From Buchnera aphidicola (Melaphis rhois) (GTDB lineage Bacteria > Pseudomonadota > Gammaproteobacteria > Enterobacterales > Enterobacteriaceae), in the NCBI RefSeq assembly GCF_005080745.1, contig NZ_CP033004.1:305107-326337 (forward strand): DNA of 21,231 nucleotides. Direction: 5' to 3'. Position numbers and translations under genes: made by a program. Below the pieces are notes generated by a model. It ran no database searches and had not been told where the DNA came from. It worked only from the letters and a program-made list of their open reading frames with translations. Positions 4,806 through 15,643 of the stretch are shown here, piece after piece; the first letter of the stretch is position 1; each line of letters opens with the position of its first letter.

Positions 4806-5480
4806 TTACATGTGAATAGGTAACATAACGGTATTTTCAGGATAATAGAATTTTTCTAAATTATAGCAATACTTTATGTAGCCTAAAAATTTAGATTTTA
4901 AATATTTTTTTAAAATAATAATATATTCTTCATCATATTTATTTTTAGGATATAAATAATTTGCAACCCATCCGAAAAAAATTAAACCAGAATCGATAAT
5001 AGCTTTTTGTGTTAAAATGGCATGATTGATACAACCTAATCTTATTCCTACTACTAAAATAACACTTAACTTTTCTTTAATTACCCAATCTGCAAAAGTA
5101 ACATCTTCAGATAATGGAGTAAACCATCCGCCAGCACCTTCTATTAATATATAATTACATTTTTTTTTTAGATTGCTCAAACCTAATGATAATACATCAG
5201 TACGAATAGGAGTAGAACATATTTTACTGGCAACATGTGGACTAATGGGTTCAGGAAAAAAGAACGGATTAACTTCGTTATAAGTTAATATAACAGAACT
5301 AAAACATTGTAGTAAATATGCATCATTATTTTTATTATTGTCTTTTCTTGATCCAGAAGCAACAGGTTTATATCCAGCTGTATAGTATCCATGAGATTTT
5401 GCTAATTTTAATAATAAAATACTATAAGTTGTTTTACCTACATTAGTGTCAGTTCCTGTTATAAACCAACAATTTTTCAT
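4806..5480 (-). CDS. bioD: BioD, dethiobiotin synthetase
   Basis: BioD closes the ureido ring: DAPA plus CO2 plus ATP gives dethiobiotin, the step before BioB. The 224 residues match E. coli BioD (225). The N-terminal P-loop GTDTNVGKT is followed by YKPVASGS, NPFFFPEPISPH, the EGAGGWFTPLS loop and LGCINHAILT. The ATG overlaps the TGA of bioC in an ATGA arrangement, so the two are probably translationally coupled. It is the last gene of the bioBFCD run. A run of ten T at 5160-5169 (ten A in the mRNA) encodes three lysines in frame and is a potential slippage site. Confidence 0.97.
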   Translation of the reverse strand: MKNCWFITGTDTNVGKTTYSILLLKLAKSHGYYTAGYKPVASGSRKDNNKNNDAYLLQCFSSVILTYNEVNPFFFPEPISPHVASKICSTPIRTDVLSLGLSNLKKKCNYILIEGAGGWFTPLSEDVTFADWVIKEKLSVILVVGIRLGCINHAILTQKAIIDSGLIFFGWVANYLYPKNKYDEEYIIILKKYLKSKFLGYIKYCYNLEKFYYPENTVMLPIHM

Positions 5481-6229
5481 AAATATATCACCCCAAAAAC
5501 TAATTTATAAGTCAATGAATATCCATTCTTATTACGTGGCCAAGACTGTTTTAATATTTCTATCTTTTTTTTTGTAACAATTTTATTAGTAGTTCTATTG
5601 ACATAATTAGCTCCTACTTTTTTAATAGACATCATTGCTTCTAACACTTTTGAAAAAGATAGTGTAATCCAAACGCTATCTATAATAGTATTTTTTTTTT
5701 GACATACAGACGAAATTTCTTGAATAGTTAAAAAATCATTTACATGACAATGTGAATCTATAGCGCTCCATGCTTGTTTGAGTTCTGATAATGATCCGTC
5801 TGCGATAGTAGAAAATAAAATTATTCCTCCAGGCTTGGTTACTCTACACAGTTCTGAAATACCTTTGGATAAATTATGACACCATTGCAAAGATAAATTA
5901 CTCCAACATAAATCAAAAATATTGTTATTGATAGGTAATGCCTCAATATCAGCTTGTAAATAATAATCAGCTACTTTTGATTGTTTAGCATATAAGATCA
6001 TATTTCTGGATAGATCTAACGCTGTTACTTTGTTTCCATATTGTTTCCATTTTTTACTAAACCACCCGGTTCCACATCCTGCATCAAGAATCGAAATATT
6101 AAATTGTAATTTTGTTTTTGATAATAATATATTTCCAGAAACTTTCTGTAAAGTTGAATTAAAATCATAATTTTTTGCAGCTCTGTTAAATGCATACTCT
6201 ATTTTTCTCTTGTTTGTTATATAATTCAT
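5477..6229 (-). CDS. bioC: BioC, malonyl-ACP O-methyltransferase
   Basis: BioC methylates malonyl-ACP with SAM, disguising it so that fatty acid synthesis can build the pimeloyl chain of biotin. The SAM-binding motif LDAGCGTGW (about 48-56), then ALDLS, LSLQWCHNLS, CRVTKPGG and the C-terminal SWPRNKNGYSLTYKLVFGVI match E. coli BioC along its length. The frame is open upstream to 6334, but the ATG at 6229 gives 250 residues (E. coli 251) with the expected NRAAKNYD near the N-terminus, so I chose it. This start lies 44 bp inside the 3' end of bioF. A run of ten T at 5691-5700 is read in frame as lysines. Many Buchnera lineages, as I recall, lack this gene; here it looks intact. Confidence 0.95.
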   Translation of the reverse strand: MNYITNKRKIEYAFNRAAKNYDFNSTLQKVSGNILLSKTKLQFNISILDAGCGTGWFSKKWKQYGNKVTALDLSRNMILYAKQSKVADYYLQADIEALPINNNIFDLCWSNLSLQWCHNLSKGISELCRVTKPGGIILFSTIADGSLSELKQAWSAIDSHCHVNDFLTIQEISSVCQKKNTIIDSVWITLSFSKVLEAMMSIKKVGANYVNRTTNKIVTKKKIEILKQSWPRNKNGYSLTYKLVFGVIYL

Positions 6230-7364
6230 ATAATTTCTCGATAAGATAATCAATATCATTTTCTGTATGTATAGAGTTGAGTGTAATACGTAATCTTGCT
6301 TGATGAATTGGTACAGTTGGAGGACGTATAGCATTTATCCACAATCCTGATAATTTTAATTGCGATGATAATTGAGTAGCTTGTTCATTATCTCCTATTA
6401 TTATAGGTTGAATTGCTGAAAGTGAATTATTTAATTTAAGAGGTAAATTTCTTGATTTTTTAAGAAAATATTTAATGTTATTATTTAATTTACTACGAAG
6501 ATCATCTGATTGTTTAATATATTTTAATGCTTGTTGTATTGTATATGCTTGTGCTGCTGGCATAGCTGTACTGAACATGATGTGTTTAGAAAATTGTATA
6601 ATATATTCCGCTATATCGTTATTACACAGTACAGCAGCGCCACTAACTCCAAATGCTTTACTAAAAGTAATAGTAATAATATCTGGTTTTACACCTTGAT
6701 TCATGCAACTTCCCCTCCCCTGTCCACCTAATACTCCAATTCCATGAGCATCATCTACTAATAGTAGGCTTTTTACTTTCTTAGAAAAATTTAAAATAGG
6801 AAGTAATGGAGAGTAATCTCCATCCATACTAAAAACTCCTTCTGTAAGAATTAATGTTCCTCTACCATTTGAAGAATAATATTGACGTTTTAAGCTATTA
6901 ATTTCATTATGTGCAAACCTATATAATTTTCCTGGACTATTATGTGCCGGTATTAATAATGAAGCATGAGAAAATCTATCAGCGAAAATTTGATCTCTTT
7001 TTTTAATTAATGTCATAATTACTGACTCGTTAGCAGTAAAGCCAGAAATAAATAGTATTGCTTTATGGTATCCCATCCATTCTGCAAGTTCTTCTTCTAA
7101 AGATTGATGTATTTTGCTATATCCAGTAATAAAGCTAGATCCACATGATCCAATTCCATATTGATCCGCACCCTGTTTCCAGGCACGTATTATTCTTTCA
7201 TCATTGCTCAGTCCCAAATAATCATTACTAGAAAAATTTATATATTTAGTATTATTAATTTTAATTAATCCATTTTTATTACTTTGAATTGCAATTCGAG
7301 TTCTAAATTGTAATTTTTTGAGATGTGTATTTATATCATTAGACATTCTTAATTTCCAGATCAT
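6186..7364 (-). CDS. bioF: BioF, 8-amino-7-oxononanoate (KAPA) synthase
   Basis: BioF is a PLP enzyme condensing pimeloyl-ACP/CoA with alanine to give KAPA, the first step of ring assembly. The 392 residues match E. coli BioF (384). Seen are NFSSNDYLGLS (43-53), the glycine-rich GIGSCGSSFITGYS (70-82), SHASL with His133, EGVFSMDGD, DDAHG (204-208) and TFSKAFG with Lys236 as the PLP lysine, at the E. coli number. The ATG overlaps the bioB stop as TAATG, and AGGA sits just before it, so it is probably coupled to bioB. The C-terminal 44 bp overlap the start of bioC, and the tail is slightly longer than in E. coli. Confidence 0.96.
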   Translation of the reverse strand: MIWKLRMSNDINTHLKKLQFRTRIAIQSNKNGLIKINNTKYINFSSNDYLGLSNDERIIRAWKQGADQYGIGSCGSSFITGYSKIHQSLEEELAEWMGYHKAILFISGFTANESVIMTLIKKRDQIFADRFSHASLLIPAHNSPGKLYRFAHNEINSLKRQYYSSNGRGTLILTEGVFSMDGDYSPLLPILNFSKKVKSLLLVDDAHGIGVLGGQGRGSCMNQGVKPDIITITFSKAFGVSGAAVLCNNDIAEYIIQFSKHIMFSTAMPAAQAYTIQQALKYIKQSDDLRSKLNNNIKYFLKKSRNLPLKLNNSLSAIQPIIIGDNEQATQLSSQLKLSGLWINAIRPPTVPIHQARLRITLNSIHTENDIDYLIEKLYELYNKQEKNRVCI

Positions 7365-8395
7365 TATTTTCCTGCATTGTAATATTGTTGATTTTCTATG
7401 ATATTTTTATTCTTAAAAATATCATTTATATTTCTATGATTATGTGCATTAATACAATGATTTTTCGAATGTAATCCTAATTTCTTGAATAGACTTAAAT
7501 CGTTTTCTCGTTCAGGGTTAGCAGTAGTTAGTAATTTACATCCATAAAAAATTGAATTAGCACCTACCATAAAGCACATTGCCTGTGTTTGTTCATTCAT
7601 ATTTTTTCTACCAGCTGATAAACGAATATAAGACTTTGGCATCATAATTCGTGTAATTGCAATAATTCGTATTACATCAAACATATCTACATCTTTATTA
7701 TTTTCCATAGGTGTACCTTTAACTTTTACTAGCGTATTTATAGGAATACTTTCTGGAGCTTGTGATAAATTAGATAACTGTATTAAAAATTTTATTCGAT
7801 CGCTAGTTTGTTCTCCAAGCCCGATTATTCCTCCTGAACACACTTTCATTCCGGTGTTTCTTATTATGTTTAAAGTATTTAATCGATCTTGATAACTTCT
7901 AGTTGTTACAATTTCTTTATAAAAGCTTTCTGAAGTATCTAAATTATGATTATAAAAATCTAATCCAGCTTGTGCTAGTCTTTCTGCTTGGTATCGACTC
8001 AAAGTTCCTAGTGTCATACATGTTTCCATTCCCATGTTTTTCACTTCTTTAATGATTTTTTCTAAATATGGCATATCTCTATCTTTAGGATTTTTCCAAG
8101 CAGCTCCCATACAAAAACGTTCAGAACCCAATTCTTTAGCTCTTTTAGCAGATTTTAATATTGTTTCTATTTCTAATAATTTTTCTTTTTTTATATTTGT
8201 TTTGTATCTAGAACTCTGAGAACAATATTTACAATCTTCTGGACATAAACCTGTTTTTATTGATAATAGAGTACTAATTTGTATTTCATTTGGATTAAAA
8301 TATTTTCTATGAATCGTTTGAGCAAGAAATAAAACATCAAAAAGAGGCGAATCAAATAATAATTTTACTTGTTCAAAATCCCATTTTTTTTTCAT
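7364..8395 (-). CDS. bioB: BioB, biotin synthase (radical SAM)
   Basis: BioB inserts sulfur into dethiobiotin to make biotin, using a radical-SAM 4Fe-4S cluster and a sacrificial 2Fe-2S cluster; flavodoxin is the reductant in E. coli. The motif CPEDCKYC gives Cys51, 55 and 58. The 2Fe-2S ligands are present as [25 protein letters not shown] and the Arg of RLSAGR. The protein ends in YYNAGK, close to the E. coli ending. An ATG at 8407 adds four residues, but GGAG (minus strand, at 8402-8405) is correctly spaced for the ATG at 8395, giving 343 residues (E. coli 346), so I prefer that. It leads the minus-strand bioBFCD run and is divergent from bioA. Confidence 0.96.
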
Positions 8396-8474
8396 TTTTA
8401 ACTCCATTAATTATCTATTTAAGTAAATAACGGTTTATAATTGTAATTTACATTCTTCGAAATAATATTTCATC
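8396..8474. promoter_or_regulatory. Divergent bioB/bioA control region
   Basis: This 79-bp spacer separates bioB (minus) and bioA (plus), the same architecture as E. coli, where BirA represses both directions from one operator. It must contain both promoters and holds the bioB ribosome-binding site. I see only one stretch resembling a BirA half-site, GGTTTATAA at 8432-8440 (E. coli half-site GGTTTACAA), with no convincing partner at the expected spacing. BirA control is therefore not supported and may have been lost. Confidence 0.45.
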
Positions 8475-12505: not shown

Positions 12506-13708
12506 ATGAATTTGTTTGTCTTATTTTTCATAGGAGTTCGATATTTTTTTAGTACATCTAGTAACCTTTTTAATAAACTAACAAATATATTGTCTATTAT
12601 TAGCATATCACTCGGAATATCAGCTATTATTATCGTAATTTCTATTATGAATGGATTTGAAGATGAACTAAAAAATAACGTTTTAAATTTTGTTCCCCAC
12701 GTTGTCATCAGTGATTCCAAAAATAATATAAATAAGTTTGTAAGTAAAAATAATAAAATTATTTCAAAAAATATAAATAAAATTTCTGAAACTATTATTA
12801 GTGATGTTATTGTTCAAAGTAATTCAGGAATGTCTATTGGTTCAGCGTTTTCTATACATAATGATGCATGTAACATATTTAAGCTTTATTTGACACATAC
12901 AGATAATATCAGTTTATTAAAAAAAAATTATTATAATGCAATTATGGGTCAGGGATTAGCAGACATATTAAATATTAATATTGGTGATAAATTTAGATTA
13001 ATTACTCCGAACTTTAGTCAATTATCTATATTTGGAAGTATACCTAATGAGCGCGTTTTTAAGCTAATAAATACTTTTATTACTGATAACGAAATAGATA
13101 ATTATCAAATATTAGTAAATCAAGATGATTTATCTAATTTCTTACATTATTCTAAAGATAACATTACAAAATTACGTTTGTGGTTAAAGAATCCATTAGA
13201 TATTGAAAATTATTTAAAAAACTTACATATACCTAATGTATTAATACAAGATTGGAGAGAGAATAAAGGAGAATTACTACAAGCTTCGAAATTAGAAAAA
13301 AATATGATGATGTTACTATTTAGCTTAGTTGTTATAATTTCTATTATTAGTTTAGTTGTTTCTGTTAGTTTGTTTATTATGGATAAGGAAAGAGATATTT
13401 CTATATTTACAACATTAGGTTTATCCAGATATAATATTATATTAATTTTTATCTTTCAAGGATTGCTTAGTGGTATAATAGGGACGTTATTAGGTACATT
13501 TCTAGGTTTATTTATCATGAATAAAACTATTGGAGTAATATCAATTATAAACTTTTTTTCGAGAGATTTTATATTACCTTGTTCTATTGTTCCACATCAA
13601 ATTGCAGTAATTAATCTATTAACTATAACGTGTGTCTTATTATCTATTATTTATCCTTCTTGGAAAGCTACTTCAATATTTCCGTCAAAAAGGTTAGCCT
13701 ATGAATAA
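12506..13708 (+). CDS. lolC: LolC, lipoprotein-releasing ABC transporter membrane subunit
   Basis: LolC is one of the two membrane subunits of LolCDE, which extracts outer-membrane lipoproteins from the inner membrane and hands them to LolA. The 400 residues equal the E. coli length. The N-terminal FIGVRYFF aligns with E. coli FIGLRYMR, then TM1 (about 27-49) ends in MNGFEDEL. A periplasmic domain follows, with the [21 protein letters not shown] stretch in two parts before TM2. Three C-terminal hydrophobic segments are visible, and the end, YPSWKAT to LAYE, is typical. No clear ribosome-binding site precedes the ATG. The 3' end overlaps the lolD start by eight bases (ATGAATAA), so the downstream gene is coupled. 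Confidence 0.96.
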
Positions 13709-14389
13709 GATTCCTCTATTAAAATGTACATCTATATATAAATCTTATAGAAATGAATCAAAAAAAAAATATATATTGAATAACGTTTCTTTAACATTAA
13801 AAAAAGGCGAAATGGTGTCTATTTTTGGTTCTTCTGGGTCAGGAAAGAGTACTCTTTTACACATTATAGGTGGTTTAGATTCACCTGATTCAGGAAAAAT
13901 TTTTTTTTAAATAAAAATATGCATAGCATTTCTAATAAAGAACAATCTATATTAAGGAATTATCATTTAGGTTTTATATATCAACTGCATCACTTATTAT
14001 TAGATTTTAATGTGATTGAAAATGTTGCTATGCCGTTGTTAATACAAAAAAAAAATAAATCAACAGCATTTGAACGAGCATATAACATTTTAAAAAATAT
14101 AGGAATAGAAGGAAAAAGTAACAATTATCCTTCAGAATTATCTGGAGGTGAACGACAAAGGGTAGCTATTGCTAGAGCATTAGTTACAAAGCCTAGTTTA
14201 GTCGTAGCTGATGAACCTACTGGGCATTTAGATAAAAAAAATTCTCATCACATTTTAGATTTATTTTTACGATTTAATGATAAATATCAAATAACTTTTT
14301 TAATAGTTACACATGATCTCGGATTGTTTAAAAACATACCATTAAAAATAAGATTAGAATCTGGAAAGTTATATAAAGTTAGTCTTTAA
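13701..14389 (+). pseudogene. lolD: LolD, lipoprotein-releasing ABC transporter ATPase, frameshifted in a T9 run
   Basis: LolD is the ATPase that powers LolCDE. The frame runs for 69 codons from the ATG at 13701, including Walker [10 protein letters not shown] (43-51) and [10 protein letters not shown], then hits TAA at 13908-13910 directly after nine T (13900-13908). Continuing in the next frame restores the protein: LGFIYQLHHLL (Q-loop), LSGGERQRVAIARAL (signature), LVVADEPTGHLD (Walker B) and VTHD (H-loop), ending at 14389. Adding one T (or removing two) gives an unbroken 229-residue LolD (E. coli 233) that aligns without gaps across the junction. Two A10 runs at 13760-13769 and 14046-14055 are read in frame. 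Every motif is conserved, so a recent mutation, RNA polymerase slippage rescue, or a sequencing error are all more likely than decay. Confidence 0.93.
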
Positions 14390-14404
14390 AAAGGAAGTTG
14401 TACG

Positions 14405-15643
14405 GTGATTTATTTGCCTATACTAATATCTAAAAAATTTAACATTACGTTTAAAAAAAATAGCATAGCTCCTCTAGTATCTACTATTTCTAAAATTGGC
14501 ATATTTGTAGGAACATTCGTTTTAATCGTGAGTTTTAGTGCTTTAAATGGATTTCAAATGGAATTAAATAACAAAATTCTATCTGTATTTCCACATGGAG
14601 AGATTTTTCCTATACATAAATCATTTCATAACTGGAAAAAAATTGAAAATTTACTAAAATTATCATCTGAGATTGTATCCATAACACCATATGTAAGTAC
14701 TACAGCACTAATTAATCATACACACGGTATAAAAGGTATTCAATTAAGAGGATTAAATTTTAATAACGATCATGGATCTAATAAATTATTTAAATTTATT
14801 AATTTTAAAACGTTAAAAAACATGCAAAAAAATAATAGTCAGATATTAATTGGGAAAAATATAGCAAAACGTTTATCTATTAAAAAAGGAGATTGGATTA
14901 ACGTTATTATTCCTAATAATTATAATGTTTTGACGTTATATCCAAAATATCTTTCGTTACAAGTGTTAGATTTTTTTCAAATTAATAGTAGTATAGACGA
15001 TAAATTAGTTTTAATGTCTATTTTAGATTTACAAAAACATCTTAATATGCAATCTGATATTTCAGGATTAGAAATATTTGTAAAACATCCATTTGATATA
15101 AATAAAACTTTTAAAGAAATTCAAACACATTTATCAAATAATTTTGTAATTAAAACTTGGATAGCAGAATACGGTTTTATATATCGTGATATTAAATTAA
15201 TAAAAACTATAATCTATTCAACTATGATATTAATTATTATTATTTCATGTTTTAGCATAGCTTCAATTACTCTATTAGAGGTATCTAAAAAAGTTAATAG
15301 TATTGCGATACTTAAAACGTTAGGATTGGATAATTATATAATAAGAATTATATTTTTAATTCATGGTATTAAATCTATATTCAAAGTAGGAATGTCATCG
15401 TTATTATTTAGTATAATATTATTATTAAATTTTAAACGTTTAATACATTATATAGAAAAATACTTAGATAGAAAAATATTGTCTGAAAATATTTACTTCA
15501 TTGATTTTATTCCTATTTCTGTATCTTGTGTAGATATTATATCAATATTTTGTATACTGTTTTTGATAGGGTGTATAACTAGCTATTATCCAGCTTATTA
15601 TGCGAGTAAAATTAACCCTATAGAAATTTTAAAAAAATATTAA
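14405..15643 (+). CDS. lolE: LolE, lipoprotein-releasing ABC transporter membrane subunit
   Basis: LolE is the second membrane subunit of LolCDE and is thought to bind the lipoprotein. The 412 residues compare with 414 in E. coli. The start is GTG, with AAGGAAG at 14391-14397 as ribosome-binding site, 15 bp after the lolD stop. Landmarks are TM1 ending SALNGFQMELNNKIL, FPHGEI, QLRGLNF, LIGKNIAKRL followed by KGDWINVIIPN, the TWIAEYGFIYRDIKLIKTI segment before TM2, the LKTLGLDN loop, ENIYFIDFIPI and the ending YYPAYYASKINPIEIL. The order lolC-lolD-lolE is as in E. coli. Its intactness supports continued use of the transporter. Confidence 0.95.
   Translation: MIYLPILISKKFNITFKKNSIAPLVSTISKIGIFVGTFVLIVSFSALNGFQMELNNKILSVFPHGEIFPIHKSFHNWKKIENLLKLSSEIVSITPYVSTTALINHTHGIKGIQLRGLNFNNDHGSNKLFKFINFKTLKNMQKNNSQILIGKNIAKRLSIKKGDWINVIIPNNYNVLTLYPKYLSLQVLDFFQINSSIDDKLVLMSILDLQKHLNMQSDISGLEIFVKHPFDINKTFKEIQTHLSNNFVIKTWIAEYGFIYRDIKLIKTIIYSTMILIIIISCFSIASITLLEVSKKVNSIAILKTLGLDNYIIRIIFLIHGIKSIFKVGMSSLLFSIILLLNFKRLIHYIEKYLDRKILSENIYFIDFIPISVSCVDIISIFCILFLIGCITSYYPAYYASKINPIEILKKY

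Follow-up and report, generated by a model that had tools for sequence, protein, structure and literature searches.

A one-base deficit in the T run of lolD, shared by most related Buchnera copies of the gene and probably rescued by RNA polymerase slippage

Homopolymer frameshifts that are rescued by transcriptional slippage are known from symbionts, and Wernegreen et al. 2010 is reportedly counted among the reports on them. The closest described cases come from Buchnera and Blochmannia (Tamas et al. 2008 via PMC5009743; Blochmannia vafer, PMC3017870). They resemble the lolD gene discussed here in that a single indel lies in a long A/T run of a symbiont gene, is kept between species without decay and is presumed to be corrected by RNA polymerase. 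However, the cases described in those sources are mostly poly(A), and slippage has been measured in them. In contrast, the lolD run is poly-T (poly-U in the mRNA), belongs to the gene of an export ATPase, is frameshifted in seven of nine species and is known from sequence alone.

Three systems from other bacteria also bear comparison. The mxiE gene of Shigella flexneri is expressed via a base added in a run of U, which joins two overlapping frames and makes the slipped product the longer one (PMC1088944, PMC5009743), just as is proposed below for lolD. However, mxiE encodes a plasmid-borne regulator, its slippage has been shown by experiment and it has no homology to lolD. In dnaX of Thermus thermophilus a run of nine leads by slippage to two protein lengths (PMC1088944, PMC5009743; the run is named by A in one source and by T in the other). 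Here the difference is that dnaX gives its full-length product without slippage and each of its two products has a role, whereas the unslipped lolD stub has Walker A only. Finally, tssM1 of Citrobacter rodentium is an interrupted gene rescued by homopolymer slippage, at about 20% as judged by fusions, but its run is A11 rather than T9 and both variants have been studied by experiment (PMC4256274). A literature search found no paper on lolD with a frameshift and slippage, and the main text of the Rhus-gall genome paper (PMC11188193) has no words starting with lol, pseudogene or frameshift.

The lolC-lolD-lolE locus and its relatives

The window, which is the whole stretch of 21,231 nucleotides analysed here, comes from the Buchnera aphidicola genome of Melaphis rhois (contig NZ_CP033004.1, positions 305,107 to 326,337). 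This genome (G000) is 616,452 bases long, in one contig. The gene order lolC-lolD-lolE is found in the window and in the other eight genomes with lolD. The features of the locus are as follows.

lolC, 12506..13708, + strand: single open frame of 400 aa, an intact permease gene; best NCBIfam match LolC PRK10814, below the curated cut-off
lolD first frame, 13701..13910, + strand: ATG at 13701, 69 aa that include Walker A, stop TAA on the T run; TIGR02211 positions 1-64
lolD second frame, one base back, 13889..14389, + strand: open, from the Q-loop to the C-terminus; TIGR02211 positions 69-220
T9 run, the putative slip site, 13900..13908, + strand: read directly; net one-base deficit at this place in seven of nine genomes
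Zero-frame stop TAA, 13908..13910, + strand: TAA or TAG at the equivalent place in six of the seven frameshifted species
lolE, 14405..15643, + strand: single open frame of 412 aa, an intact permease gene; best NCBIfam match LolE PRK11146, below the curated cut-off

The start of lolD is overlapped by the last 8 bases of lolC. A sequence-only reading of this DNA had stated that the lolD frame ends at TAA right after nine T and that one extra T would restore LolD. The split is confirmed by the letters: the TAA at 13908-13910 uses the ninth T of the run, which has five A upstream and AAATAAAAATATG downstream, and LolD continues one frame back. LolD identity was judged by the family profile TIGR02211. 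Searched apart, the two pieces both have TIGR02211 (LolD) as their best NCBIfam match, at positions 1-64 and 69-220 of 221. They score 78.9 and 211.2 bits, and the intact relative P0002 scores 294.2, the curated cut-off being 307.75. The same reading had called lolC and lolE intact, and they are single open frames in the window and in all nine same-genus genomes that have them. An Rfam scan of 13400-14500 returned only one CRISPR-repeat match, below the gathering score (E 0.19) and taken as chance. Elsewhere, at 4806-8407, the window keeps a biotin cluster, which we take to be bioD, bioC, bioF and bioB next to bioA; bioC and bioF were matched in only three of ten relatives (G003, G005, G010) within the stretches fetched.

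The same-genus comparison set comprised 11 genomes, with G000 as the window genome. Nine of the 11 have lolC, lolD and lolE, and the eight besides G000 are listed here with the aphid host assumed for each.

G001, taken as the Nurudea yanoniella symbiont, 608,857 bases: T10, in frame
G002, taken as the Meitanaphis flavogallis symbiont, 619,106 bases: T9, frameshifted
G004, taken as the Nurudea shiraii symbiont, 607,770 bases: T9, frameshifted
G005, taken as the Floraphis choui symbiont, 616,219 bases: T9, frameshifted
G006, taken as the Kaburagia rhusicola ensigallis symbiont, 617,138 bases: T9, frameshifted
G007, taken as the Chaetogeoica yunlongensis symbiont, 588,399 bases: T8 after GTA, in frame
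G008, taken as the Schlechtendalia peitan symbiont, 625,015 bases: T9, frameshifted
G010, taken as the Meitanaphis elongallis symbiont, 625,615 bases: T10 with one base less behind the run, frameshifted

The other two genomes, G003 and G009, gave no lolC or lolE match and no lolD match at 1e-30. G003 (615,980 bases) is presumably the symbiont of Baizongia pistaciae. If it is taken as such, the absence of LolCDE agrees with the description in PMC3246468.

It had been suggested that lolD be compared in related strains, and this comparison reveals more than chance would give. The same net one-base deficit occurs at the same place in seven of the nine genomes (G000, G002, G004, G005, G006, G008, G010), with run lengths among the nine copies of T9 in six, T10 in two and T8 in one. 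The zero frame stops on the run in six of the seven frameshifted copies, G010 being the exception, and six of the seven have a second frame that is open from 11 bases upstream of the run. Therefore, the two frames overlap only around the run in most species, and a recoding site is confined to its surroundings. As in the symbiont cases outlined above, there is a single indel in an A/T run of at least 9 with no other stop, and several species carry the shift without any decay of the gene (seven of nine genomes, with purifying selection on both halves). However, the nine-base run is conserved in only six of nine homologs, whereas programmed slippage as treated in PMC1088944 calls for conservation across all of them.

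Proteins and genomes from further afield were also compared. P0006, which has another source, is 69 aa long and identical to the first lolD piece of G004. P0003, likewise from another source, is a 134-aa C-terminal protein 93% identical to that of G006. Both are candidate split copies. The 233-aa relative P0004 has LolD in one frame. In another Buchnera-like genus (g104) LolD is matched in all 36 genomes, at 1e-25 or better. The site was inspected in 30 of these genomes and gave a result in every case but L122: the 29 loci are in one frame there, with a run of at most T7. Of seven loci from other small genomes, four gave a result; they too are in frame, and one has T8. When lolD was compared with plasmids by distant blastn, 268 records came up. 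In no case did the match reach 80% of the query, and the 20 matches listed resemble general ABC ATPases. A LolC scan of genome contigs found four proteobacterial MAGs and no Buchnera.

Other genes near the lol cluster also change frame, in single lineages: phrB in G004 (L210 near 15569), nif3 in G010 (L204 near 17010) and bioD in G009 (L214 near 15410). In G003, ispG (L212:16019-16995) is matched only in two frames and at 42-48% identity, as if decaying; its identity in other relatives where covered is 75-86%.

Constraint on the two halves and on the run

Is a gene split in this way still used? The second half of lolD is stop-free in all nine genomes. When it was evolved neutrally in simulations to a divergence of 0.2, a mean of 6.0 stops arose and only 0.2% of 2000 runs had none. 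Estimates of dN/dS (Nei-Gojobori, eight genome pairs) for the second half are 0.17-0.38 across the seven pairs without G007, among them 0.19 for G002-G006, in which both members have T9, and 0.54 for the pair G000-G007. Over the same eight pairs the values are 0.22-0.42 for lolC, 0.17-0.39 for lolE, 0.07-0.40 for the first half of lolD and 0.10-0.16 for gapA. The synonymous excess in G002-G006 has a Fisher p of 3.6e-5 in the second half and 1.6e-5 in the first. By these measures, both halves of lolD are under purifying selection in the shifted arrangement. Because the frameshift is common to seven of nine species and the protein is conserved on both sides of it, the frameshifted lolD is very probably still used. 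This part of the sequence-only reading has held up. It had also offered a mixed T9/T10 population as an alternative and named an assembly error among the refuting outcomes. As a general account, neither is supported, with six species at exactly T9 and in-frame relatives at T10 and T8.

The next question is how old the deficit is. A tree from 13 aligned protein blocks (11 genomes, 4219 columns) gives support of 100 to the pairs G003+G007, G001+G004, G002+G006 and G008+G009, with weak support (27-62) for the other branches. Judged by its place in this tree, the window genome would belong to the symbiont of a gall-forming Fordini aphid. Rooted on G003+G007, at least two changes are required among the lolD carriers. 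The minimal histories would be one loss before the Rhus-gall radiation together with a return in G001, or two losses.

The stability of the run was calibrated, in a small and rough manner, with runs of at least 8 (length in G002) in the close pair G002 and G006. Run length is unchanged at 184 of 186 coding runs, at six of 18 noncoding runs and at 11 of the 12 that lie in small unassigned frames. The six unchanged noncoding runs include the frameshift site in rimM, which is really coding. The ingroup tree is 20 times longer, and over it a noncoding-like run would change about 20-22 times, or about 11-12 times when the small-frame runs are counted as noncoding. Since coding runs are stable and noncoding runs are not, the stable length at lolD suggests constraint, and despite its missing base the run resembles coding runs under constraint. 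Such stability shows that the length is maintained; it does not show an advantage of the short state over the in-frame one.

Two other possible signs of selection were considered. That returns to T10 are rare is weak evidence for a preferred deficit, because the partners of long noncoding runs are mostly shorter. The lack of interruptions in the T run was dropped as a sign of selection for the run, because Phe is TTT in 90.5% of codons and an unbroken run is therefore not evidence by itself.

Slippage and its rivals

To place lolD among its like, frameshifts were surveyed in nine genomes, each sampled by ten 20-kb stretches together with the lol neighbourhood, as well as in ten stretches of G241. 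The criterion was a gene matched in two adjacent frames. About 36% of each genome was covered, and a site shifted in every genome is invisible to this approach. The survey found 28 frameshift sites, two of them only in G241. Of the sites in the nine genomes, 24 lie at a run of at least 9. Sense-strand poly-A accounts for 23 of these and lolD is the sole poly-T, which is unremarkable because poly-T makes up just 115 of the 904 sense runs of at least 9 in frames of at least 100 aa. The sites correspond to 42 genome-by-site cells: 34 are net -1, which is the class rescued by a one-base insertion, and 8 are net +1. Runs of at least 9 hold 38 of the 42 cells, the 1475 runs of 8 hold none and the 3001 runs of 7 hold one, near A11. 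Over all 28 sites, the lolD shift occurs in seven genomes, ftsI in four, recB and rne in three each with mixed directions, rsmD and rimM in two each (G002 and G006), one echo-like site in two and the remaining 21 in one genome. Echo-like junctions seem to stem from shortened query proteins (G005_L164, G008_L174, G010_L154); there is one among the 28 sites and none among the 24. In short, shifts at homopolymers occur often in these genomes, and within the roughly 36% surveyed none is shared as widely as that of lolD.

The second most widely shared site lies in ftsI, at about residue 100. An A9-A10 run there carries a net -1 shift in G000 (L148 near 966), G002, G006 and G010; ftsI is in frame in G008 and G241. 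Four more genes of G000, recB among them, are split at A10-A12 runs (L151 near 8766 and 12117; L149 near 4792 and 15877).

On these comparative grounds slippage during transcription, the mechanism that had been proposed from the window alone, remains the best explanation: lolD is probably a working gene that is one base short in its T run and is rescued by RNA polymerase. A single base would have dropped out of the run, either once at an early point of the Rhus-gall lineage or on two occasions. On T9, RNA polymerase would add one extra U in a fraction of transcripts. The added U would join the two frames to give full-length LolD, and unslipped transcripts would give the 69-aa stub. Slippage would have made the base loss bearable, and the length may have been held since because most other lengths could not be rescued. 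Several observations fit, namely the same net deficit in seven genomes next to in-frame copies in two, the concentration of shifts at runs of at least 9 and in the net -1 class, and a lack of conserved structure downstream of the run, since a ribosomal shift normally depends on such a structure. Of 157 transcription insertions recorded in Buchnera, 151 fall within homopolymers (PMC5574713), and corrected transcripts amount to 12-50% in symbiont genes according to PMC5009743.

However, not everything fits. The Buchnera study in PMC5574713 (strain LSR1), as described there, detected no restored reading frame. Most other sites have longer runs (A10-A12), on which more slippage would be expected than on T9. 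Much of the run-length pattern could come from mutation bias towards long runs alone, so this pattern is support, not proof, for polymerase slippage. Ribosomal -1 shifting predicts the identical protein and the identical -1 bias. Finally, the incomplete conservation of T9 among the homologs also counts against slippage.

What if the one-base-short state is itself favoured? In this hypothetical scenario, a programmed slippage switch would keep LolD, and perhaps also lolE via lost translational coupling, at a low set level. The short state would have been kept through most of the radiation of Rhus-gall Buchnera, and in G010 the run would have grown to T10 by substitution while the deficit stayed. 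We consider this tentative addition to polymerase slippage possible but doubtful.

The best of the rivals, although an unlikely one, is -1 frameshifting by ribosomes, in which the mRNA has U9 throughout and ribosomes slip back on U_UUU_UUU to make the same protein. This heptamer is in zero-frame phase in all seven frameshifted copies, with a stop at once in six of them, and AGGAG occurs a few bases upstream in five. However, AGGAG is absent from the window and from G004, and G010 lacks the immediate stop. A conserved stimulator of -1 frameshifting, either a downstream structure or an upstream Shine-Dalgarno-like site, was not found in the seven sequences. Consensus folding behind the run gives only -0.12 kcal/mol, and single-sequence folding z-scores range from -1.12 to 0.81, except for -2.53 in G004. 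Unstimulated heptamers in E. coli reach at most about 10 times a background of 0.055% (PMC4066793, a figure for such heptamers in general). It also argues against ribosomes that only one of the 42 frameshift cells, the one near A11, belongs to a run of 7 or 8, though such runs are far more numerous.

A mixture or phase variation at the DNA level is less probable again. Genome copies or cells would differ between T9 and T10, with the T10 copies supplying LolD. Noncoding runs of such length do change easily (12 of 18 differ between G002 and G006), and the sister species taken as N. yanoniella (T10) and N. shiraii (T9) differ at the site. Nevertheless, six species have T9 in their assemblies and G010 keeps the deficit with T10, whereas a standing mixture should presumably show both states in more even shares.

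Perhaps LolD could work as two chains, the stub and a reinitiated C-terminal chain assembling as a split ATPase. An ATG does lie 11 bases after the run in the window, at 11 in G005 and at 10 in G010. However, in G002, G004, G006 and G008 the second frame has no ATG, GTG or TTG until 44 to 410 bases past the run, and the second half is conserved in these four as well. With four of seven copies lacking a start codon within 40 bases of the run, reinitiation is not the common solution, and we regard two chains as very improbable. Hardly better is a recent pseudogene, freshly lost and not yet decayed. Loss does occur in the genus (lolCDE is absent in G003 and G009), but the shift is common to seven of nine species, the second half is conserved, and lolC and lolE are intact in all nine. 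Least probable of all is a sequencing or assembly error: homopolymers are its usual place and eight of the other genomes, judged by length, come from one project (PMC11188193 Table 1), but the project sequenced with Illumina, T8, T9 and T10 all occur at the site among its genomes, the length of the window genome does not appear in that table and the 69-aa P0006, a candidate split copy identical to the first piece of G004, has another source.

The Lol route and what the deficit may mean

LolA and LolB are both present in the window genome:

LolA, G000:C1:340814-341281, - strand
LolB, G000:C1:180474-180938, - strand

They are the partners of LolCDE, which releases lipoproteins from the inner membrane. 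The two were matched without stops in G000, G007, G008 and G010 and with stops in G005, and gave no match in the remaining six of the 11 genomes. The Lol route is thus complete in the window genome, in keeping with a continuing need for lolD. G001, G002, G004 and G006 keep lolCDE without LolA or LolB matches. The presence of LolA and LolB in G000 contrasts with the symbionts of A. pisum and S. graminum as described in PMC3246468.

This kind of case is already known in Buchnera and Blochmannia, and lolD is a widely shared poly-U member of it. What lolD offers is a natural series of related symbionts: some lack one base in the gene (T9), others have it in frame (T10, T8) and others have lost it. 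Such a series suits tests of how genomes become dependent on errors of their polymerase. If slippage is the true explanation, a whole group of species would have depended on it for a lipoprotein export pump, and anyone calling pseudogenes in genomes of this kind would have to allow for slippage.
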